A stretch of DNA of 64,000 bases from Hondaea fermentalgiana (lineage: Eukaryota > Sar > Bigyra > Thraustochytrida > Thraustochytriidae). The stretch is taken from the NCBI GenBank assembly GCA_014084085.1, contig NPFB01000048.1, positions 1 through 64,000 of the forward strand, in the 5' to 3' direction. Shown here piece by piece: positions 15,811-29,533 of this stretch (positions are counted from its first letter, which is position 1; each line of letters begins with the position of its first letter). Below the pieces are notes generated by a model. That model saw nothing but the letters and a program-made list of their open reading frames with translations, did not search any database and had not been told where the DNA came from. The position numbers and the translations under genes are program-made.

Positions 15811-18800
15811 TCAAATGTTTGCCGAGGGCGGCACGAGCGCAATCATACGCACGCGATTGACGCCTCCATCTGGAAAGACTTTGAGTCGCGCCTGCGAAAT
15901 GTCTGGAACGCTCGAATCAATCTTGATGACTTTGGTGTTGCCCGCAAAGGCTTTGACGGGTGTCAGCTGCACCATCTCGACCCACTTGCCCGCACCTGAC
16001 AATCCTTCGATGCTCACCTCGCGCGGATTGTTGTTGACGAAAAAGGTAAAGTCAAGTTCCACGCGCAAGACCTTGACGGGCATCGCGAGACGAAAGACAA
16101 GCTCTTCGTGATGGTTGTCTTCACGAGAACGCGCACTCTCAAAGCCGTCGTGCATCGACAGCGGGATATAAGGGGAGAAAACTTGGCCCGCAGGCCCATA
16201 GTGCTGGTTCGTGACAGACACGAGCTCGCCTCCGTATGCGAGACTTGCAGCATCAAACTCTTGACCGACGGTGAGCGCTTGGCGGTTCCGCGCAACCTCC
16301 GACGGCGTCGGCTCGTACAAGAGCTGCAGAGGCTTCTTGGTGCTCGGGATTGGATCGGTGCAAGGAATGCACTTGGCCTCAGCAAAGGGAAGAAAGGTGG
16401 ACGCCAGCGCGTCGGGAAGAGAACCGTCTTCAAAAAGCCCGATGCGCGACAGTCCTCCATCAGGAAAGATTTCGATCTGGATTTGGTCCACGCGCAAGGC
16501 CGCCTGAGCGTCATTGAGGACAATGCGTTTCTCTGCATGGCCCTCGAGATGAGTTTTAGCCACGATCTCTACCCACTTTGGAGTGGCGGCAGGCCCTTCT
16601 TCAACAACGCGGGCACTGAGACGCGCGTGCTCGGCCTGGTTGCCCAAGTGGTACTTGGTTGAAAAGACGACGTAGCGAATTTGAGCGGGGCGGACGAGCG
16701 AAAAAATAGCAGTATCGTGCGTCTCCGGGTTGTGGCGGGACGTCTCCCAGCTGTCCATGACTTTACCCATGGGGCAAAAGAGTTCCGGATCAAACTTGGG
16801 CAAATGGTCCGAAGCCAGGTTGCAGGCACGTGCAAAACGCTGGCTCGAGACATGCTCCAGGTTGGCACCAACAAAGACATTCTGGGCTGCGAGCGGATCG
16901 AGAGGGCCGCGGTCCTCAATTCCAGCAGGCAGCGTCGGCTCGAAGGCGACAAAGACCAGATTCTTGTAGCCGTAGTTTACAATTTCCTCCTGTGGAATTT
17001 TCTCGACATCCACAGAGGCAGCAGGAAAACGATCGACGTTGATGCCCTCAATATGCATCACACGGAGGATAGCTTGGCAGGCCTCGGCAATGAAAAACAT
17101 GGCTCGATTGTCGCCGTTGGCAAAGGCGGAGACGCTTTTGCCGGCATCAGGGCCGTCAAAGCAATGAATGTAAATGGCGCGGAACCCATCGTTGGCACCT
17201 TGATGGATCGCGAAGCGATTCGGGCCAGCTTCACCGACAAAGACTCCAAGCCCCATCAGAACCCCCATAAACTCGCGGCAGCCCTTGTCCGTGCCATGCA
17301 GCATGCGCACGGCCGTGTCGTGAGAAATTGGCCCCGAACCATCTTTGCAGCGATACGCCTCGCCGAGCACATCCAGAAAGCGCGTCATGGCGCGCGGGGT
17401 TCCGAGGGCGCCAGCCGCAAAGGACGGGAACATTTTGCGCGTATCCACGATTGCTTGACCCTCATCGTCATACCCGCAAGCAACAGGGGCGTTTTCAGGC
17501 TTGTAGTTGAAGGTGAGCTCGTCGGCGACGCCAATCTGTTCGAGAAAGGGTTTGGTGAGCGCGTCGATACTCTTGCCACCCTCGAGCTGCTCGATGAGGT
17601 GTTGCAGCACAAGAAAACCGCCGCCGCTGTACTGAAAGAGCGTGCCAGGCTTTCCGACAACATCAATGGGCGGGTAGCCATACGTTTCATTGCCTTCAAG
17701 GAAGTCGCGGGTCTCTGGCATGGTCTCGCTCAGAGGGACGCCATTTACATAGTGCATGTTGAGCGCGCTGTGGCTCATGAGATGCCAGAGGAACACCTTG
17801 TCACCGTATTTTGAGTTTTTGATTCGAAAAGTCGACTGCGTCTGCGCCAAGAGGTCATTTACTGGTGCATCGAGCGAAATGCCCCGCGCCGTGAAGTACT
17901 CGATAGCAAAGGCAGATCCAATCGTCTTGGAGAGCGAGGCAATCTCAAACATGGTTTGCGGCTCTACAACTGCCTTGTCGAGGCAGGCCTCGCCTACGCA
18001 CACGGGCTGTCCGCTGAGGCAAAAGCTGGCGCCGGCCACGCCATGCTTGCTGCGAAGGGTTTCGAGTTTGGCAATGAGATCGTCCGTGGCTGCGTCATCC
18101 CCGAGACGTTTGGCGGTGATCTGCCACAAGGCCTCGCGCGCATTTTCTAGCTCTTGCGCGGCGGTGTTGTCAATGCGGCTTTCCAGAACGGCAAGGAGCT
18201 CCTGCGCGGATTTTCCCTTGGCAGAAACGAGAAATTTGACGCCGAACTTGTTGAGATAGACGGCACCGAGATCGCGGAGACGAGTTCGCGCAGCATCTGC
18301 CTCGGCATCCGCAGAAGCAAATACACGAGCCTGCTCGGCGCTCGCGAGCTTATCCAGCTTTCCAGCGCCCTGACCAATGTCGCCGTGGAAGCCGGCAGAC
18401 TCGATGACCTCGGCCAAGTCGAAGCTGTGAATAAGTTCTCGGGCTTGTTTGAGGTCCGTGGCCACCGTCTTGGCCATGGTCCGCGCAAAGCGCATAGCGC
18501 CACAGCGCTCGAAAAAGTAGTGAAAGCGCGCAGCGTAGTTGTCCTGAAAAGAGAACTTGGCTGGCTCATACGCGAGCGCGGTCTCCCAGGGACTCTCGGT
18601 TTCGCGGACGCGGTCCACGGTAAAAGTGAGCAGCAGCTCGGTGACAAAATCGACTGGGCGCGGATCGCAGACGAACTTGAGCAGCAGTTCCATGGCAACC
18701 GGGTACCATTTGGACGAAGTAGAGTTCCAGGTCACGTGGACCGTCTTTCCCTCGCGAGGAATGCCCCGACGAATAGCGTTAAGCTCTTCGTGTGCGATGC

Positions 18801-20586
18801 GAATAAAGTCCTCCAGGGCAAAACGACCATGGTGCACCTCGGCCCAGAGCTCCCAGCGCGATCGCTCAACGGTAGCGAGATCGTCAAGAACAAGGACCTC
18901 GATCCCGTCAACACGTGCCGGGAGACCGACGCAGCCGTTGCCGCCAAGCCAGTCCGCGAGGTACTGCAGAGACTGAAAAATGTTGTAGCGGACCTCGTTT
19001 GCATCGTTGTTAGCAATCTGCTCCGACTCGGGGACATTTGCTACCACGAGGGAGCTCGGGAAACTCGGAGCCTTGATGTCAACAGCGCCGGCCGGGTCCT
19101 CGCCGCGAGCAAAGGCGAGGACTTCCTCCTGGTGCGCTTCGTTGTGCAAAACGCCACGCACGAGCTGCTCAAAGCAGGACGCCGGGGTGTCGGTGCCCGA
19201 ACCTGCGCGCCACGCATGCACTATGGCGGTGGCCACGCGCACGTACCGGGGGTCGGCAAGCCAGAAGCCCTCGAGGCCGCGCCGAAGTTGCGTAATGACG
19301 TCCTTGAAAAGGCCTCGCAGGGCAATCTGCAACGAGGCGTCTGCCGGGTCCCAGGAGAGCGGAAGTACGCCGTACATGCCCCCGATCGCGAGACCGCCGC
19401 GGCCTTTGACAACACGCGCCACGAGTTCATGAGAAGCCTTGACGTGCTTGAGCACAATGGAGGTGTCCGCCTTGACCGGAATTCGAAAGTGCGGGTCTTC
19501 CTTGTACAGGCGCGCGGTCGCGGCAAGGTAGTCGTGCCAACCGAGCGATGCGCCAGCAAAGTATGGGTAGAGTGCGTCGGCGATTTCGTTGGCACGGAAG
19601 ATTGCCCGCGCGTTTTCGAGAACGACAAGGACGCGAACGCTGCCAAGGGTATAAGCAGAGTGCACGGCTTTGACCCGCTTTTCGATTGAGGCAATGAGCG
19701 TGGCCACGTAGCGCGCTTCCTCTTCGTTTTCGAGCTTGGGCACGTAGAAAACAAGCGCCTCGGGCCGAGCCCAGTGTTGCAACACGTGGACAGCGAGCTC
19801 CAGCACATGCATTGGGACAGGTTCACCGTTGGCTCGAAAGACGTACGTGCAAGGCAGCGCTAGTCCTGGAAGACGCTTGAAGGCCTGCGCAAGGTGGGCA
19901 GTGGGCGTATCATGGGTCATTTTCGTGTCGCGCTCGAGACAGGCGCCCAGGTTGGCATCGGCGGCCTCGATTGTCTCGCGCAGCGGGGTCTGCGAGTCTT
20001 CAAAATCGACGCCCCATCGAGGAGGGTGTTGTGTCTTGTTGCCGGCAATGATTTTCTCCACGATCGCCGGCTCATGTGCTAGACGCGCCTCCGCTGCACG
20101 GAGGGATTTGCTGCAGCCCTTGGCATCATCGGCAAGACCAAAAACGGTGACATGTTCACCTTGAAGAAAGCCCGGGAGAGGGGCAATTTTCTCGCCTGCA
20201 GGTTCCGCATAGGGAGCGTCAGGTGCGGCAGGACCTACAACGACGCGGCCATCGGCGTCGCGTTGTCCGAAAATGGTCGCATAGTCGTTGGCTCCGGATT
20301 TGGCGTCGGCGCGACCCAGTTTGGCGTTGAGCTTGGCGACGGCTCGGGTACGCTGATCGATGAAGGCGCGGTCCTTTTGGCGTTGCGCGAGCACGTTCGC
20401 GAGTTCTTGGTGCGTGTCGTCGCAGACGGCGGCGACAAGTTTGACGGCTTCTTCGCTTTGCAGACGCTCGGGCACGGGCGGCACCACGCGCAGGGTACCG
20501 CTCGCGGTCTCGTCTTGCGTTGCAGTGTGCTGCGCCACCGCGCCGAGCTCGGCGGCCAGCTTGCGCGGCAAGTATGCCTCAAACAT
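15811..20586 (-). CDS. Malate synthase / OHCU decarboxylase / serine hydrolase / allantoicase fusion (1591 aa)
   Basis: One uninterrupted frame with four enzyme domains of ureide catabolism. Residues 1-655 are malate synthase A-like: R251, DFEDSQTP at 194-201, candidate Mg ligands E324 and D352, GGMYGVLP, and LDDLATVERSR with D569 in the catalytic-Asp position. Residues 675-830 match OHCU decarboxylase: H734 in HGDIG, SAEQ at 749-752, KFGVKFLVSAKGKS. Residues 835-1175 are a class C beta-lactamase/esterase-fold hydrolase with SLSK (S884, K887), Y986-S987 and HQG (1128-1130). Residues 1235-1591 are the two allantoicase repeats, each ending in an FPDGG motif (1374, 1571). Allantoicase releases ureidoglycolate and urea; malate synthase consumes the resulting glyoxylate. 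No PTS1 is evident (ends ANI). Divergent from the HpxO gene. The serine-hydrolase role is unknown. Domain calls are strong; cooperation is inferred. Confidence 0.92.
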   Translation of the reverse strand: MFEAYLPRKLAAELGAVAQHTATQDETASGTLRVVPPVPERLQSEEAVKLVAAVCDDTHQELANVLAQRQKDRAFIDQRTRAVAKLNAKLGRADAKSGANDYATIFGQRDADGRVVVGPAAPDAPYAEPAGEKIAPLPGFLQGEHVTVFGLADDAKGCSKSLRAAEARLAHEPAIVEKIIAGNKTQHPPRWGVDFEDSQTPLRETIEAADANLGACLERDTKMTHDTPTAHLAQAFKRLPGLALPCTYVFRANGEPVPMHVLELAVHVLQHWARPEALVFYVPKLENEEEARYVATLIASIEKRVKAVHSAYTLGSVRVLVVLENARAIFRANEIADALYPYFAGASLGWHDYLAATARLYKEDPHFRIPVKADTSIVLKHVKASHELVARVVKGRGGLAIGGMYGVLPLSWDPADASLQIALRGLFKDVITQLRRGLEGFWLADPRYVRVATAIVHAWRAGSGTDTPASCFEQLVRGVLHNEAHQEEVLAFARGEDPAGAVDIKAPSFPSSLVVANVPESEQIANNDANEVRYNIFQSLQYLADWLGGNGCVGLPARVDGIEVLVLDDLATVERSRWELWAEVHHGRFALEDFIRIAHEELNAIRRGIPREGKTVHVTWNSTSSKWYPVAMELLLKFVCDPRPVDFVTELLLTFTVDRVRETESPWETALAYEPAKFSFQDNYAARFHYFFERCGAMRFARTMAKTVATDLKQARELIHSFDLAEVIESAGFHGDIGQGAGKLDKLASAEQARVFASADAEADAARTRLRDLGAVYLNKFGVKFLVSAKGKSAQELLAVLESRIDNTAAQELENAREALWQITAKRLGDDAATDDLIAKLETLRSKHGVAGASFCLSGQPVCVGEACLDKAVVEPQTMFEIASLSKTIGSAFAIEYFTARGISLDAPVNDLLAQTQSTFRIKNSKYGDKVFLWHLMSHSALNMHYVNGVPLSETMPETRDFLEGNETYGYPPIDVVGKPGTLFQYSGGGFLVLQHLIEQLEGGKSIDALTKPFLEQIGVADELTFNYKPENAPVACGYDDEGQAIVDTRKMFPSFAAGALGTPRAMTRFLDVLGEAYRCKDGSGPISHDTAVRMLHGTDKGCREFMGVLMGLGVFVGEAGPNRFAIHQGANDGFRAIYIHCFDGPDAGKSVSAFANGDNRAMFFIAEACQAILRVMHIEGINVDRFPAASVDVEKIPQEEIVNYGYKNLVFVAFEPTLPAGIEDRGPLDPLAAQNVFVGANLEHVSSQRFARACNLASDHLPKFDPELFCPMGKVMDSWETSRHNPETHDTAIFSLVRPAQIRYVVFSTKYHLGNQAEHARLSARVVEEGPAATPKWVEIVAKTHLEGHAEKRIVLNDAQAALRVDQIQIEIFPDGGLSRIGLFEDGSLPDALASTFLPFAEAKCIPCTDPIPSTKKPLQLLYEPTPSEVARNRQALTVGQEFDAASLAYGGELVSVTNQHYGPAGQVFSPYIPLSMHDGFESARSREDNHHEELVFRLAMPVKVLRVELDFTFFVNNNPREVSIEGLSGAGKWVEMVQLTPVKAFAGNTKVIKIDSSVPDISQARLKVFPDGGVNRVRMIALVPPSANI

Positions 20587-20706
20587 CTTGTTGTTGCTGC
20601 TTGTCGACGATGAGGGAGGGCGACGTCGAGGTGAGTGAGTACGAGCACGGAGACGGGCACGAATGCAGCAGCAGCAGGAGCGTGCTGCCGGTGCGCCGAC
20701 GCCCTT

Positions 20707-20785
20707 CGCGGTCGCTGTCGCTTGGTGTCGCAGTCGCTGTTGCTGTCACCGTTGTTGTCGTAGTCGCTGTCGCTTCCTCGGCGCT
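20707..20785. repeat. Degenerate GTCGCT/GTTGCT hexamer array
   Basis: Imperfect hexamers based on GTCGCT, GTTGCT and GTTGTC, complementary in type to the array at 9839-9931. Both lie in the upstream region of a divergent gene pair. Confidence 0.7.
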
Positions 20786-20811
20786 TCTCGCGTCGGGGTG
20801 CAATTCGATTC

Positions 20812-20862
20812 GAATTGGAGTTTGAATTGGAGTTTGAATTTGAGTTTGAGAGTTTGAATTCA
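20812..20862. repeat. GAATTY/GAGTTT short tandem array
   Basis: Repeats of TTTGAATT and GGAGTTTGAATT. Similar in core to the array at 9316-9366. Confidence 0.75.
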
Positions 20863-21992
20863 AAACAGCAGCCAGGCGGCTACTGGCTGATCTATCTGCC
20901 TCCAGACCCGGCTACTACTACTGTCACTGCTGCTGCTACGCCAGACTACGACAGTACTACCTTGGCCAACTTGGAGACAGACAGACTGACTGTGCGCAAG
21001 GCAAGCGCGCCCAAACTCGGAGGCGCGTGCGGGGAGGGATGGTGGAGGGGGGGGGGGAAGAAGAAAGCAAGGCGCGAAAGGAGGTGGAGAGGCGGCGACG
21101 TGCTCGCCCAGCCGCGACAGCGACGCTAGCCAGCTCCGTCACGAGAAGCTGTAGCAAAGCAAGCGAGGGGCGACACGAGCAGCTAGGACTCGTCTTCCGC
21201 CGACAGAGACACACGTTCCGCCCACCCGCGCGACGCAAGTGGGAATCCCGCGCAGCCGCACTTGCAGCGCGCCCATACTTCACTTGCGCAGCTGCGGCGG
21301 CGCCCAGGACGCGTCACGCATGTCCCCCTCGTTTTCTTTTTCGATTCCTCGAACGTTGAGAACCCGGGCGCATCTTCCGCCGTGTAGCCTGGAAGTCCTG
21401 GCTTCTTTCCGCCGGAGCGTGCTGGTGTCACCAAGTTGAGGCCCGGGGGCCGCGCTGCGTGGAGTACCCCCCCAAAGCGGTTCCTGCGCGTGCGATGCCA
21501 GCAGATAAGCAGAGGGCGGAAGAAAAGGGGCGAAGATGCCCCGGGTCGGGTGCGGCGCGCCTCCTGGCGGCGGAGCGAGTGCGCGAACACCAGACGCGGT
21601 AGCATTTGGTGCGAGGCGAAAGAAGTGAAAGCAGAGGCGACTGACTTGAGGAAAGAAACTTGAAAGTGAGAGAGACACAAAGAAGAAGGGAAGAGCACGA
21701 GCGCGAGGACGGGCACGCGACAGCAACTGCGACCAGCGCCGGTGACGAGCAGAGGGCGGCGCCCGAGGCTGGCGAACTCGCTGTTGATCGCTCCGCCGGG
21801 ACCCGTCGATCGTGTGACGGAGGTGCAAACCAGAATCGAGCTCGCGAAGGACAGACGGAGCCGGAGACGAAAGGGCGGGCGAAGCCGGCGCGGAAAAGTC
21901 TGTCCATCTATCTACGTTGCGAACGGGGACGACCAGGACAGCAACCTCACAAGCAAGAAAAGCAAAGCAAAGTAGAGTCGAGGAGAGAAAAA

Positions 21993-23210
21993 ATGTTTGA
22001 CCTGGACGTGGTGGTGATCGGCGGCGGCATCGCTGGCTTGAGCACTGCGCTCTTTCTGAAGCGCTTCGGATACAATGTAATCGTGTACGAGCGGGCGCCG
22101 GAGATCTTGCCCGTGGGCGCAGCCATCTCCGTGTGGAGCAACGGCGTCAAGGTCATGAACAGGCTTGGATTCGGAAAGGAAATGATCGAGCTTGGCGGCC
22201 AGATGGACCGCATGATCTACAGGTCCTCCAAGGGCGAGTCCCTTGTGGACATGGACCTCGGACCGGTGTACAAGGAGGTCGGCGAGCGATGCTACCCGGT
22301 GCCGCGTGCCGAATTGCAGCAAATGCTCATGGACAAGTACGTGGCCGAGGGCGGCAAGCTCGTGCTCGGTCGCTCTTGCGTGAGCGTGCATCGCGTCGAC
22401 GAGTCGGACGAGGATAGCAAAATGTATGCCGTCTTTGATGACGGTTCAAAGTCGATGGTCTGCGACGTGCTCGTTGGCGCGGACGGCATTCGATCTCAGG
22501 TTCGAACCCACGTTCTCGAAAAAGAAATGTCCCCAGTGTACCACTACACCAACTGGAATGGTTTGGTGAAGATGGACGCCAAGCTGGGCAAGCCGAATGA
22601 GTGGGTCATGCACGTGGGCGAGGGTAAGCGCGCAAGCGTGATGCCTGTCGGCAACGGCCGCTTTTACTTTTTCATGGGCGCTCCTCTCCCCGAGGACGCT
22701 CCTGCCCCGGAGCGCGGGAGTGAGGCCATGCGCGACGAGCTCAAGGAAATCTTCAAGGGCTGGCCCGCCTCCGTGCAGCATCTCATTGATGCGATCGACG
22801 TGACGCGCTTGAATCGCATTCCCATTTGCGATGTTGATCCGCTGCCTCGTCTTTGGCGTGGGCGTGCCGTCTTGGTCGGCGACTCTGCGCACTCGACGAC
22901 ACCGACGCTGGGCCAGGGCGGTTGCCAGGCGCTCGAGGACGCCGAGGTTTTGTCCTCGTTTCTTACGACCACCAACGTTGGTGTCCAGGACGTTTTTGCC
23001 CGCTACGAGCAGCACCGCAAAGACCGCGTGCACACAATGGTGCTCAAGGCGCGCGAACGCACGGCGCAAATTTACCCTCGCGACGCCGAGGGTGAAAAGG
23101 CCACGCAGCAGTGGTATGAGGAGCTTCGTTCGTCCAAGGACATTGGCTCTAACATTTTGGGTGGCATCACCGCGAACCTGAAGCAGGGGCCGTGGCCGCC
23201 TCGGCTGTAA
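21993..23210 (+). CDS. hpxO: HpxO-type FAD-dependent urate hydroxylase (405 aa)
   Basis: Predicted to hydroxylate urate to 5-hydroxyisourate using FAD, NAD(P)H and O2, doing the job of urate oxidase. It is a group A flavoprotein monooxygenase: GGGIAGL at 10-16, GADGIRS at 162-168 and GDSAHSTTP at 296-304. HpxO-specific segments include PVGAAISVWSNGVK (40-53), YTNWNGLV (185-192) and GEGKRASVMPVGNGRFYFF (209-227). R213 and Y225 correspond to residues I recall as Arg204 and Tyr216 of Klebsiella HpxO. The C-terminal WYEELR and QGP also match. Bacterial HpxO is about 384 residues. It ends PRL, a plausible noncanonical peroxisomal signal. The ATG at 21993 follows an A-rich leader; the open frame upstream is judged UTR. 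Paired head to head with the allantoicase fusion. General aromatic hydroxylase is the alternative, but match to HpxO is close. Confidence 0.9.
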   Translation: MFDLDVVVIGGGIAGLSTALFLKRFGYNVIVYERAPEILPVGAAISVWSNGVKVMNRLGFGKEMIELGGQMDRMIYRSSKGESLVDMDLGPVYKEVGERCYPVPRAELQQMLMDKYVAEGGKLVLGRSCVSVHRVDESDEDSKMYAVFDDGSKSMVCDVLVGADGIRSQVRTHVLEKEMSPVYHYTNWNGLVKMDAKLGKPNEWVMHVGEGKRASVMPVGNGRFYFFMGAPLPEDAPAPERGSEAMRDELKEIFKGWPASVQHLIDAIDVTRLNRIPICDVDPLPRLWRGRAVLVGDSAHSTTPTLGQGGCQALEDAEVLSSFLTTTNVGVQDVFARYEQHRKDRVHTMVLKARERTAQIYPRDAEGEKATQQWYEELRSSKDIGSNILGGITANLKQGPWPPRL

Positions 23211-24760: not shown

Positions 24761-25202
24761 AGACGCCCATTTCCTCGCCTGCTACTCCGGATTGCACGAG
24801 GAGTACCTGGCGAGCAAGTGGCCTATGCGTTTGATACGCGAAACCCTAAGCTGGCCGCGACCGACCGGTGTGGAAGCAGGGCAGGACAGGAAGCAAAGCA
24901 AGCACGGACAAGGAAGGAGCTAAAAGGAAAGAAAGAAGGGAAACAAGGGAAAGAAAGAAGCACCTGAGAGAGAGAGAAAACGAGAGGCTCATCCGCCAGG
25001 CAGCCAGAACCGCAACACCGCGAAGGAGATCGAGCGAGCGAGCAAGCGCGCGAGCGGGCGGGCGAGCGGCGGACGAGAGGGCGAGAAGCCCGGCGAGGAG
25101 AAGCCCGGCGAGAAGCCAGGGCCGGCCCCGCGAGAAGAGGCGGGCAACCAAGCAAGCAAGCAAGCAGGGTGTCCGTCCCTCGGGCGTGCTCCGAAGGAGA
25201 CG

Positions 25203-25955
25203 ATGATGCGGGCGGCGGCGACACGTGCAACACGCGCGGCGGCAGCAGCAGGAGCGGCCGCGACGGCGCAGGGAACCGCGGCGACCGCGGCCGCGGCGCC
25301 CGGAGCGGTGCAAGGGAACGGCATGATGGCCGCACGCATCATGGCCGGGACCGCCAGGGCGTACTCGACCCGATTGGACAATTCGCGGATGGCACACGGC
25401 GTCGTGCTGGGCGTGAGCCCCATGGAGGAGCGATCGTCCGTGTTTGGATGGGCACGCGGGCTGACCTCGAGCGTTGACCTCAACGAGCGCCGCGTGAGCG
25501 ATGTCCTCAACATTGCCGATCAGGCTCGCAGAATTCAGGGGTGGACGGTCAGCGGCGACGCCACCGTGCTCGAAGCCACCCGTCTCATGGTCGAGCGCCG
25601 CACCGGCGCGCTCTGCGTGACCGAGGGTGACCAAATCGTCGGCATCATCACGGAGCGCGACTACCTTACCAAGGTCCTCCACGCCGGCAGGACCTCGGAC
25701 AAGACCCCTGTACACGAAATCGCCACCATGGGCAACCACCTCATCGTCGCTACTCCGGATGATGTCATGCAGGATTGCATTGACATCATGGTCATGAAGA
25801 ACATCCGTCATCTTCCCATTGCCGAGCCTGATGGAACCATCGTTGCACTTCTCGACATCAAGGACATTGCCAAAGCCCTTGCGGACGAGCGCACGATCAC
25901 TCTGCACACCCTCGACGAGATCCGGGCCGAGAAGATGCCCATCCATGATGGTTAA
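25203..25955 (+). CDS. Mitochondrial CBS-domain-pair protein (250 aa)
   Basis: A Bateman module (two CBS domains) that usually binds adenosine nucleotides and acts as a regulatory sensor. The N-terminal 55 or so residues are Ala/Arg-rich with almost no acidic residues, a typical mitochondrial presequence. CBS1 runs from about VSDVLNIADQ to GIITERDYLTKVL and CBS2 from VHEIATMGNHLIV to ALLDIKDIAKAL. The GIITERDYL motif and stand-alone layout resemble the plant mitochondrial CBSX3 type and bacterial inosine-free CBS proteins. There is no partner catalytic domain. Two adjacent Met codons (25203, 25206) could each start it. Converges on the NTPase gene. Regulatory target unknown. Confidence 0.88.
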   Translation: MMRAAATRATRAAAAAGAAATAQGTAATAAAAPGAVQGNGMMAARIMAGTARAYSTRLDNSRMAHGVVLGVSPMEERSSVFGWARGLTSSVDLNERRVSDVLNIADQARRIQGWTVSGDATVLEATRLMVERRTGALCVTEGDQIVGIITERDYLTKVLHAGRTSDKTPVHEIATMGNHLIVATPDDVMQDCIDIMVMKNIRHLPIAEPDGTIVALLDIKDIAKALADERTITLHTLDEIRAEKMPIHDG

Positions 25956-26281
25956 CAGGACCTTTTCCTCCTCCCTCTGGCCACTCTCAGCAGTCAATCA
26001 ATCAGCCATGTGCGGCTATCGTCCACGTCACCCGTCGTCTTTCTTTACTTTCTTATATTTTTTTAATCAGGTGGCGGGACGGCGCATCGGCTGGCCCTAC
26101 TCCATCCAATCAACGTCCCAACCAACGTCCCAACCAACCCCATCCACCTCCTTCGCGTGCACTTTTATATATCATGTATCTCGGCTGCTTCTTCAGCCAG
26201 CCGGGCGCACGCTTGCAGTAAATACCGACTATCTAAGCTTATAGCAGAAAATATCTATTCTTATCAGTATTCAGAGTCAAA
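25956..26281. other. Convergent 3' intergenic region
   Basis: About 326 A/T-richer bases between the CBS-protein and NTPase stop codons. Contains a duplicated CCAACCAACGTCC-type segment near 26107-26135. No gene is seen. Confidence 0.5.
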
Positions 26282-26302
26282 TCATGTCGAGTTGTTGCTG
26301 TT

Positions 26303-26335
<33 letters not shown>

Positions 26336-29300
26336 GCTGCTGCCGCTGCTGCTGCTGTTACTGCCCGGAGCAGGCCCAGAGCGCCGCGCTCTCGAACCCC
26401 TTGGCGCGGGCGTTGCGCCTCCCATCCCACGGATCGGCACACGCACGACCCTTCGTTTCGAAGATCGCGAAATCTCGCCGCGAAGCTTCATCTCTTGCTG
26501 CGTCCTCTCCGCCGAAGGTTTCTTACTTCGCTGCCTCCGCACGAACCCCGATTCGCCTTCCCCGCTCAGTTTGCTGAAGAGCGTTCCCTTGCGCGAAATC
26601 TCCTCCACTCGACTTGAAGGGTCGTCCATCGCTCCATACTCAGCAAAAACGGTGTCGGAAAACAGACCGACGTAGTCTCTCTCGTCCACAAGCAGAGAGC
26701 TGCGAAGAAAAGAGAGAACCACGGATGGCGTGCGCCACACATCGGTATTACCGTCATTCTCGGCGAGTTTATGGAACTCGTTCGCCGGGTCGATGGCGCT
26801 TTGCATCAGCGACTTGTGGCTTTCATACATGCCTTGTAAATCGCCAGGACAGTTTGCGCGAGGTCTCATCTGGCAGTACACGAAGCGTTCCTCACGTGCC
26901 CATTTGAAAAAGACGCCTTTCGGGTTCAAAAGCGCGTACGCGCTTCGCGCCAGCGAACGTGGAGTAGGATCCGCAGTCACCTCGGGGCGAATCGATACGC
27001 CCAGTATTACACACGATGACGACGCCGAGGCGTTCTTCCGATCCGCCGCTGCCGCTTCCTCGTCCTCTGCGCCCAAGGACTCTGGCAAAGCCACGAGCAT
27101 ATTGACATGATTCTGCAGGTCAGAAGCATAGCGGAGCACATACGCATGCATGGGCTCCGGCTCCCATGCCGCATCCGTGGGCACGTCAAAGTCTTCCACG
27201 ACAGTCAGACCGTCGAGTCCCAGTCGCACCGGCGTGCGGAAAGCTTGGTACCCGTCGTTCGTTTCCACCGGAGCAGAGTACGGTACGACATCCTCACCCA
27301 AAACGAGATCGCTTAAGCTGGTAGGCAGTCCGCGAGACGTCTGCGAAGCAGCATTCAAATACATGATGAGCGCACCCATGCTACGCTTCGTGCTTGGCGG
27401 GCCCTTTTTCAAAATCTCTTCAGCAGCTCGACCCTCGCTGCTCACATTCACAACCTGGTCAAAACTGGCCAAAAGTCTTGCGAATCCCAGGGGAGGCTCC
27501 TTGAGTCCAAACAATTGGGTCCATATGTATGGCACAATAGGGGCCAGGAAAGGATCGTCAAATGATCCTGTGAGCAAGCCTTGCCGCAAAAGCCGCAACG
27601 TTGCTTCCTCAGTCGCAAAAGGCCGCTTCCGCGCCGACAGCGCCGAAGCCAGCGCCAAGCTGGCGTCGGGACTGTGCACGTTGTATAGCGGCGAGTCTTC
27701 AATCTCTCGCTGCAGTCGAGACGTGGTCATAAGAGCCTTGATGTGATCTAACATGGAGCCCATATGGGGCTTGAGACGGGGCGCTACGATAGACATGAGC
27801 TTGGGCACGCCGGCACACGCAGCAAAGACCTCCATGGCCCCGTCGTCGTGCATCCAGCGAGGCGCCTGCCAAGGCTTCTCCTCGTGGTAAAGTTCCACCG
27901 CCTTGGCCACCGTCTCCCGGGATAGTGGCGCAAGCAAAATTTCTTCCGTAGCCCACGTGCTTCGGGCAACCGCTACGTCCAGCATATGCTGCGACGAGCA
28001 AGCCACCGCAGGGAGCAGCGTGGGCCCTTGTTCGCATGCCTCCGCAATGGCCAGCACCATGACATCAAGAGCATCTTGCTGCATTTTCGCCCCGTCCAAG
28101 ATGTCATCCACGCAGAGGATGATCGTTGGTGTCGCGCCGTCTTCGCCTGCCGGTCGCCGCGCCGCAATGTCAGACTTGATGATGCGAATCGCCCCCGCGA
28201 GACTTGGCAAAGAGTCCGTGTAGATTTGTCCAAGAAACTCCGTGAACGGAGACCCCTGACCAAAGTAGCTATGCAAAACCCGAGTGCATAGGGCATCCTC
28301 TGGCGCGGCCTCGGGGTCAGCATCACGAGAATACTCGCCACGAAAGGAAACGGCGACCCCTGTCGCTCGTCTGAACCGGGCAATAAAGCGCCCATGATCA
28401 GCGTCGCCGGCCGCAAGATCTTGCAGAGCAGCCCATTTAAGTTGGCCGTCCATCAGCGGCTTTTGAACATGCTCAGGCTGCATATGCCAAGCTCTGTCGA
28501 TAGCCTGCACCGGTGCAGCAAGGGCTTCCAAGAATCGCGATTTCCCAATCCCCGAGCCGCCCGCGATATTCAGCAAAGGAATCGGAAGTCGAAAGTGTTC
28601 ACCTTCGCCTTGCTTCGCCCAAGGCGATGTCCCGCTGCACCAGGCGCCGAGGCTCTCTGCGATGGATTCCCTCCGATCGAGCAAAGTTGCCATAAATCCT
28701 GGCAAGGCGAGCTGGAGGACCTCATACGGCCGTTCAAAGCGAAGACTTTGTAACTGCATCGGATCCTGTGGGTTAACTTTGCCGAGAGACCAAGACGCAG
28801 GCGTTTGCACAGGATATGCAAGCGTCCGGGATCGCGTCGCGGCTCCAAAAAGGTTGAGCTCTTCGCGACAGTTTTCGAGCTCGTTTTGCAGCGATGCGAA
28901 CCTCGACCGGACTGTTTCTGCCATTTTCTTGGTGCTGGCCAACTCGCGATCGACTAGGGGAAGCATCATACGTACCGCGACCTCTGACATTTCTGCAAGT
29001 CCCGTTCCACTAATATCAGCAGCCCCATTCTGGGCGTCTGCGAGCGACTCCGTGAATAATCCCTTTTTCGAAAGAAAATCTCGTTCTTGCTCGAGTCGCT
29101 CAATCTTACTCGCGAGCGTAGCGTGCTCCATTTGTGCATCGCGGAGCTTGGCGCTTGCCGCATCGGCACGCTCGCGGCTGCGGTCCATCATGGCCACCAT
29201 TGTTTCTGACCGCGTTCGTTCTTTGGCAGTCGCGCCTGGGGTCGGTGGTCTCACGCTCGGCAAAGCTGCACTTGGCAAAGCTGCGCTCCGCGGTGTTCTG

Positions 29301-29533
29301 TCTGTACGGCTGCCAGAGAGCCCGCGTGCCTGCGTCCACTGCCACGAGGCAGCGCCCGCGCGCCAGCAGCTCGCCACACGTTCCTGGGGCCCGGGCCATG
29401 CCGCCCGGGCCCAGACCCTCGCTGGCGAGTCTGCAGACGTCAGGGCCCGCCGCTGCCTCCGTCGGCCGGCCCCTGCGAGGCGGCCTGCGCCCCCTCGGGC
29501 AAACGTCATGCTGCTCCCCGCGCGCAGAGACAC
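26282..29533 (-). CDS. P-loop NTPase of unassigned family (1083 aa)
   Basis: I do not recognise a named family. A probable coiled-coil segment covers about residues 115-240. A Walker A motif GGSGIGKSRFLEAL lies near residue 322 and a Walker B-like TIILCVDDIL near 470, so it is a P-loop NTPase. The single NTPase domain followed by a long alpha-rich C-terminal part recalls STAND proteins and the NTPase parts of protist Crinkler/RHS-type proteins, but this is only a resemblance. The first 111 residues are Arg/Ala/Ser-rich and may be a mitochondrial presequence or UTR; Met112 (29200) is an alternative start. The C-terminus ends in an Arg-rich stretch and a poly-Asn/Ser tract encoded by a trinucleotide repeat, so the extreme end may be length-variable. 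Confidence 0.6.
26291..26340. repeat. GTT trinucleotide repeat (poly-Asn coding)
   Basis: TTG/GTT triplets repeated about 15 times; on the minus strand they encode the poly-Asn tail of the NTPase gene. Confidence 0.9.

Follow-up and report, generated by a model that had tools for sequence, protein, structure and literature searches.

A four-domain fusion protein for purine degradation in Hondaea fermentalgiana with a candidate serine-hydrolase allantoinase

To our knowledge, allantoinase activity (allantoin to allantoate) has otherwise been known from metal-dependent amidohydrolases and from PuuE. PuuE is a polysaccharide-deacetylase-like enzyme. In yeast, malate synthase is tied to allantoin degradation by the DAL cluster, which contains the malate synthase gene DAL7. 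Bacterial proteins of the PRK13797 type, annotated as allantoicase, presumably join allantoicase to 2-oxo-4-hydroxy-4-carboxy-5-ureidoimidazoline (OHCU) decarboxylase; we know of none with a malate synthase part or with the beta-lactamase-fold serine hydrolase domain that we name SerH here. The window analysed is a stretch of 64,000 nucleotides from the thraustochytrid Hondaea fermentalgiana (contig NPFB01000048.1, positions 1 to 64,000). In place of the separate genes of yeast it encodes malate synthase, OHCU decarboxylase, SerH and allantoicase as one polypeptide, next to a gene for an HpxO-like urate hydroxylase. We propose, with a probability of roughly 0.7, that this locus encodes the larger part of a route for oxidative purine degradation, probably bacterial in origin, in which SerH would be a serine-nucleophile allantoinase. 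The parts of the fusion gene are as follows.

15811..20586, minus strand: four-domain fusion gene (malate synthase, OHCU decarboxylase, SerH, allantoicase), defined by a single 1591-codon open frame, Pfam and relatives.
18517..20586, minus strand: malate synthase part, about residues 1-690 (approximate boundary), from Pfam 248-455 and 529-651, alignment with 3cuz and invariant residues.
18097..18516, minus strand: OHCU decarboxylase part, about residues 691-830, from Pfam 707-828 and invariant H734, E751 and R827.
17023..18093, minus strand: SerH, residues 832-1188, beta-lactamase/DD-peptidase fold, proposed allantoinase, from Pfam 847-1160, a structure model, fold matches and invariant S884, K887, Y986 and H1128.
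15814..17022, minus strand: allantoicase part, residues 1189-1591, two repeats, from Pfam and alignment with yeast allantoicase 1sg3 across both repeats.

The fusion frame starts with ATG and is uninterrupted through all 1591 codons. The initial annotation had read it as a single gene fusing these four functions, and profile searches bear this out, since Pfam places all four families as named there and every domain exceeds its gathering score. The malate synthase part matches MS_TIM-barrel (PF01274; residues 248-455, 5.5e-18, 65.3 bits, cut-off 26.4) and MS_C (PF20659; residues 529-651, 35.2 bits, cut-off 23.1). OHCU_decarbox (PF09349; residues 707-828, 1.3e-17, 65.2 bits, cut-off 24), Beta-lactamase (residues 847-1160, 1.5e-17) and two allantoicase repeats (PF03561; 2.6e-45, 154.4 bits, two stretches) follow. 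No amidohydrolase domain was found in the fusion with Pfam or NCBIfam profiles. Scores against NCBIfam models are below the equivalog cut-offs for malate synthase A (88.1 bits, cut-off 594.5), allantoicase (TIGR02961; 153.9 bits, cut-off 277.9) and OHCU decarboxylase (63.5 bits, cut-off 124), which argues that the domains are divergent members of their families. The class C beta-lactamase model (NF033085) gives 20.6 bits against a cut-off of 415, and we propose no role of SerH towards antibiotics. The PRK13797 model matches the allantoicase part as well (141 bits), but the fusion remains far under its cut-off of 814 bits.

The residues taken as catalytic are unchanged in 37 of 37 aligned proteins and in 68 of 68 full-length bacterial fusions. 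In the malate synthase part, which aligns with 3cuz, they are R238, E324, D352 and D569, presumably the catalytic Arg, two metal-binding acids and the catalytic Asp. The OHCU decarboxylase part keeps H734, E751 and R827, the first two of which we take to be the catalytic His and Glu, and SerH keeps S884, K887, Y986 and H1128. The fusion is matched just once across the 36.0-Mb, 238-contig Hondaea genome; a stand-alone malate synthase on contig C235 scores higher against the family. A frame artefact was ruled out, as proteins of 1530-1629 amino acids from many sources share the four domains; one of them is a complete MMETSP transcript (P0005; G, L and P numbers are our labels for genomes, loci and proteins).

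A protein search (E <= 0.001, 8000 candidates scored) found 570 relatives of the fusion. The best 120 listed all have the four domains (precomputed Pfam column) and, the window's own entry aside, are 47-72% identical to the query over 96-100% of its length. Most of those that carry a name, themselves a minority of the entries, are bacterial; the names are Bacteriovoracaceae, Bacteriovorax, Bacteriovoracia, Bdellovibrionales, Bdellovibrio sp. HCB337, Oligoflexus and Planctomycetes. The fusion is accordingly not a eukaryotic speciality. An origin of the fusion as a eukaryotic invention was rejected on the same grounds, the protein being widespread in bacteria and placed in purine operons. Those operons were examined in a scan of GTDB genomes that gave 125 stretches confirmed by tblastn, the best 80 of which form the locus set. 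Clusters of open reading frames, named from one representative each, comprise 5-hydroxyisourate (HIU) hydrolase in 62 of these 80 loci, PuuD-type urate oxidase in 49, uricase in 10 and xanthine dehydrogenase parts in 26-28. Upstream sequence is available for 72 loci; HIU hydrolase lies directly upstream of the fusion on the same strand in 47 of them and divergently in 12, and PuuD, HIU hydrolase and fusion stand in line in 37. The fusion belongs to purine degradation. In 28 of 42 fusion bacteria its malate synthase part alone matches that family. At two loci (L015:4190-4975 and L079:9041-9829) the position upstream of the fusion is taken not by HIU hydrolase but by a conserved protein of ~261 amino acids; the L015 copy, the only one scanned, has no NCBIfam match.

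The other enzymes of the route were sought in 43 genomes, namely the 42 fusion-bearing bacteria and the window genome. Transthyretin-type HIU hydrolase is present in all 43, and the idea that SerH replaces it was rejected on this ground; in the window genome it is encoded on another contig than the fusion (G000:C14). Ureidoglycolate lyase (PF04115), and AllB or PuuE above the cut-off, were found in none of the 43 genomes; at E <= 1e-5 the search for AllB gave no match in the window genome. The urate-to-malate direction first assigned to the route holds with these domain assignments; the gene pair is not the self-sufficient system it was taken for. Below the cut-off, AllB-like matches occur in 42 of 42 fusion bacteria (68 rows). 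Nineteen of the 68, taken from the highest scores down, were classified: all are best named dihydroorotase or dihydropyrimidinase, and 18 exceed the curated cut-off of such a model. Of the six amidohydrolase genes in the window genome, five are named as urease, guanine deaminase, dihydroorotase, N-acetylglucosamine-6-phosphate deacetylase and a TRZ/ATZ-type hydrolase; the sixth received no convincing name. Uricase was not found in the window genome and is present in 5 of the 42 bacteria. It could be argued that known allantoinases are present and were missed through incomplete assemblies or insensitive models, in which case SerH need not fill this step; many of the genomes were assembled from metagenomes, with completeness not given, and only the best candidates were scored. 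This is very improbable in our judgement, for the AllB model exceeds its cut-off in E. coli, in B. subtilis and, within the same phylum, in 23 of 368 genomes, the PuuE model does so in Caulobacter and in G136, and AllB above cut-off is found in 0 of the 42 fusion bacteria against HIU hydrolase in all 42.

Those 368 genomes belong to Bdellovibrionota, the fusion-bearing phylum of G003, and constitute the set used for analysis of gene replacement. SerH was counted at E <= 1e-40, and AllB was searched at E <= 1e-90 and counted above its cut-off. SerH occurs in 69 genomes, AllB in 23, HIU hydrolase in 91 and PuuE above cut-off in one. SerH and AllB avoid each other among the 91 genomes with HIU hydrolase: 61 have SerH only, 21 AllB only, one has both and eight have neither (P = 3.8e-13). 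Three of these eight (G125, G135, G210) have the start of a fusion right behind HIU hydrolase, cut by the contig end. An AllB fragment adjoins the operon in G304, and in G370 AllB is matched in part, with a score under the cut-off. G136 has HIU hydrolase and PuuE, while the HIU hydrolase matches of G079 and G115 are weak or partial. A recount, which rests on this reading of contig ends and includes the cut AllB of G144, gives 65 genomes with SerH or fusion, 25 with AllB (some cut), two with both and three with neither (P = 3.4e-16); the three are G136 and the two with weak HIU hydrolase matches. PuuE appears in G136 as another replacement of AllB, from a family unrelated to SerH.

Gene order agrees with the replacement. 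The operon of G075 (L137) contains in line AllB, allantoicase, OHCU decarboxylase, HIU hydrolase and a DUF6986 protein; this sister operon matches the fusion operon, with AllB occupying the place of SerH. The operon of G304 (L136) has the AllB fragment, allantoicase, OHCU decarboxylase, HIU hydrolase and a 445-amino-acid protein. The domain order of the fusion mirrors the pathway: SerH follows OHCU decarboxylase and precedes allantoicase, just where an allantoinase would act. The reaction proposed for SerH is that of AllB, but AllB is a metal-dependent cyclic amidohydrolase, whereas SerH is of the beta-lactamase/DD-peptidase family and fold with a predicted serine nucleophile. The last gene of the AllB operon encodes the DUF6986 protein (L137:9011-10354), possibly a glyoxylate-using enzyme; malate synthase has this position in the fusion operon.

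Several observations weigh against an allantoinase role of SerH. Across all 368 genomes its avoidance of AllB is not significant (P = 0.094), and the counted genomes are related rather than independent, so the P values are too small. Seven of the 69 SerH genomes have no HIU hydrolase in their assemblies. The domains of the fusion, like HpxO, score under the NCBIfam cut-offs, and the fold of SerH also serves esterases and peptidases. Two steps of the route are without an enzyme (allantoinase and ureidoglycolate lyase), and SerH could fill the other one. G143 and G144 hold both a SerH-allantoicase protein and AllB; an AllB-OHCU decarboxylase fusion adjoins HIU hydrolase in the former, and the cut end of such a fusion is found in the latter. 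Their SerH belongs to a variant lineage: where the fusions have Tyr986 and HQG, SerH of G144 and that of G145 have Phe and HHA; HHA is also seen in G143, where the Tyr site is cut off. Tyr986 is kept in 68 of 68 full-length bacterial fusions, and other two-domain SerH-allantoicase proteins keep it too. If this Tyr is the general base, which we take to be its role in class C enzymes, SerH looks impaired where AllB is present, and this counts in favour of the proposal. To be set against it is G145, whose SerH has the same Phe, yet which has no AllB match at E <= 1e-90. AllB and OHCU decarboxylase are joined in one 617-amino-acid protein at L134:5877-7730, another pathway fusion.

The second of the two vacant steps defines the strongest competing view, in which SerH has ureidoglycolate, the allantoicase product, as its substrate and the opening of allantoin falls to an enzyme not yet recognised or to a promiscuous dihydropyrimidinase. 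The lack of PF04115 in all 43 genomes, the dihydropyrimidinases of some fusion genomes and the AllB of G143 and G144 are in its favour. We nevertheless consider it unlikely. A ureidoglycolate-lyase-like gene (100.7 bits, cut-off 230) adjoins SerH-allantoicase in G145, which argues against SerH being the lyase. No lyase gene lies in the read stretch of the G075 AllB operon, so that the two operon types are distinguished not by a lyase but by AllB versus SerH. The single AllB-like gene of several fusion genomes scores just 113-140 bits, and for the one classified among them (G003, L102) dihydroorotase is the best name, with scores under the cut-offs. According to the Nephromyces paper (PMC6320678), ureidoglycolate converts spontaneously. 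Beside SerH-allantoicase at two loci (L119:7126-8926 and L123:1754-3571) are found a class V aminotransferase, whose best-fitting models are those of glyoxylate and pyruvate aminotransferases though under the cut-off, and a single-repeat allantoicase-like protein of 166-179 amino acids; these neighbours suggest another way of handling ureide products.

SerH has the hallmarks of the class C beta-lactamase/DD-peptidase fold (SxxK, catalytic Tyr, [KH]xG motif and the fold itself). Its motifs read SLSK, YSG and HQG, with H in place of Q in one of 68 full-length bacterial fusions. The AlphaFold model (mean pLDDT 96.2, pTM 0.94) matches IS11 esterase, R61 DD-peptidase, LACTB and D-amino acid amidase at a listed identity of 14-21%; the shared fold alone, as modelled, does not show the substrate of SerH. 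These nearest solved folds would suit a peptidase or esterase of accessory function that travels with the fusion and catalyses no pathway step. Such a passenger is improbable, given that the Ser, Lys, Tyr and His are invariant in the fusions, that SerH persists in two-domain proteins with allantoicase and that its avoidance of AllB points to a pathway role. Besides the low identity, SerH differs from class C beta-lactamase, R61, D-amino acid amidase and EstB-like hydrolases in being fused between purine-pathway domains and in its predicted substrate, a small cyclic ureide. The initial annotation recognised the serine hydrolase domain and gave it no role; the domain stands, and it has become the most informative part of the locus. 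Taken together, the replacement pattern, the neighbouring genes, the order of the domains and a catalytic residue lost where AllB is present are best explained if SerH is a third, unrelated type of allantoinase.

A search with the SerH-allantoicase half found 198 related proteins. Among the best 120 listed, 23 are free-standing SerH proteins of 422-462 amino acids, all with the Ser, Lys and Tyr. Twenty-two form one clade (P0336, P0338-P0342, P0344-P0347, P0349-P0360; support 0.982), and P0335 falls among bacterial fusions. Eukaryotic names or source labels are attached to six of the 23, Amorphochlora amoebiformis and Prymnesium parvum being two of these; MMETSP and EukProt also occur as labels. 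An ending that resembles a type 1 peroxisomal targeting signal ([SAC][KRH][LM]) is present in 9 of 23 free-standing SerH proteins, versus 3 of 120 listed fusions. SKL (P0360, for example), SRL, AKL and CRL are among these endings; the Amorphochlora and Prymnesium proteins do not have one. On balance we favour the view that SerH founds a third allantoinase class, built into an OHCU-to-malate protein in bacteria and this eukaryote, and that free-standing versions, some of them peroxisomal, carry out this reaction in algae, haptophytes and chlorarachniophytes being examples. Full-text literature searches, with most subscription journals outside them and absence from print not shown, returned no description of the fusion or of a serine-hydrolase allantoinase; the PuuD paper (PMC4562309) gave no hits for malate or allantoinase.

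In the proposed route, HpxO would oxidise urate to HIU, and the HIU hydrolase encoded elsewhere in the genome would make OHCU. The fusion would then convert OHCU to (S)-allantoin by its decarboxylase part, open the hydantoin ring by attack of Ser884 of SerH to give allantoate, and split allantoate to urea and ureidoglycolate by its allantoicase part. Ureidoglycolate would yield glyoxylate, either spontaneously or by action of allantoicase, and the malate synthase part would join glyoxylate and acetyl-CoA to malate. Intermediates may be channelled between the joined parts. The released urea could pass to the organism's urease, a one-chain enzyme with gamma, beta and alpha parts encoded at G000:C192 (L105) in the window genome. 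If correct, the proposal would fill a hole in purine nitrogen recycling of Bdellovibrionota, Planctomycetes and some protists without a nameable allantoinase, add a serine-nucleophile class to allantoinase activity and make SerH a candidate for this step in algae. The fusion provides a one-protein test case for ureide degradation coupled to central carbon metabolism. The value of the locus lies less in a compact eukaryotic arrangement than in SerH.

The partner gene and the region it shares with the fusion are located as follows.

21993..23210, plus strand: HpxO-like FAD-dependent (flavin adenine dinucleotide-dependent) urate hydroxylase, 405 amino acids, from NCBIfam urate_HpxO, start choice and closest solved chain 3rp6.
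20587..21992, no strand: shared upstream region of the two divergent genes, from the gene coordinates.

The two genes lie head to head, as first described, with ~1.4 kb between their start codons; ATG at 21993 is the best HpxO start, and a TTG at 21660 was set aside. The assignment to urate hydroxylases of HpxO type is supported by homology (468.7 bits over the whole urate_HpxO model) and weakened by a score under the cut-off of 500 and by one active-site position. The closest solved relative is Klebsiella HpxO (3rp6, 295 bits; also 3rp7 and 3rp8), whose Arg204, Tyr216 and Asp293 we take to be active-site residues. Equivalents of Arg204 and Tyr216 are kept in all 120 listed relatives, window protein included. 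The equivalent of Asp293 is never Asp in this list: it is Thr in 116 (window protein included), Val in three and Cys in one; the listed relatives named HpxO share the Thr of the window protein. Urate oxidation by the window protein is probable. Its C-terminus is PRL; two relatives end in SKL, one of them labelled as a Chlorarachnion-type record. Conservation of the pairing had been proposed as a check. For the fusion relative P0003 and the HpxO relative P0123 alike, the longest contig given is 170950 bases, a hint that the two genes may be linked, whatever their orientation, in a single relative.

The contig looks eukaryotic, with an ABCA-type transporter, p34-Arc and protein kinase domains among the neighbours, and bacterial contamination was rejected on this basis. 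GC content and third-position GC are 0.588 and 0.666 for the fusion, 0.601 and 0.766 for HpxO, and 0.52-0.56 and 0.55-0.71 for five neighbour genes (p34-Arc: 3' part only); base composition is no strong test. Two long minus-strand frames (24846-25997 and 26282-29533) have no Pfam match at 1e-6. The distribution of the fusion, mainly, points to its transfer from bacteria to this eukaryote. The five relatives with more than 51% identity (P0002-P0006) include one eukaryotic MMETSP transcript, P0005, and P0001-P0006 group together inside the fusion part of the SerH tree (120 sequences, midpoint root, low deep support) with a support of 0.308. None of the 35 pattern matches of an IMG/VR scan encodes a relative. 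A partial OHCU decarboxylase-SerH-allantoicase protein is named from Ectocarpus fasciculatus (P0273) and may be a contaminant; a 970-amino-acid protein with the same three parts is named from the chytrid Hyaloraphidium curvatum (P0288).

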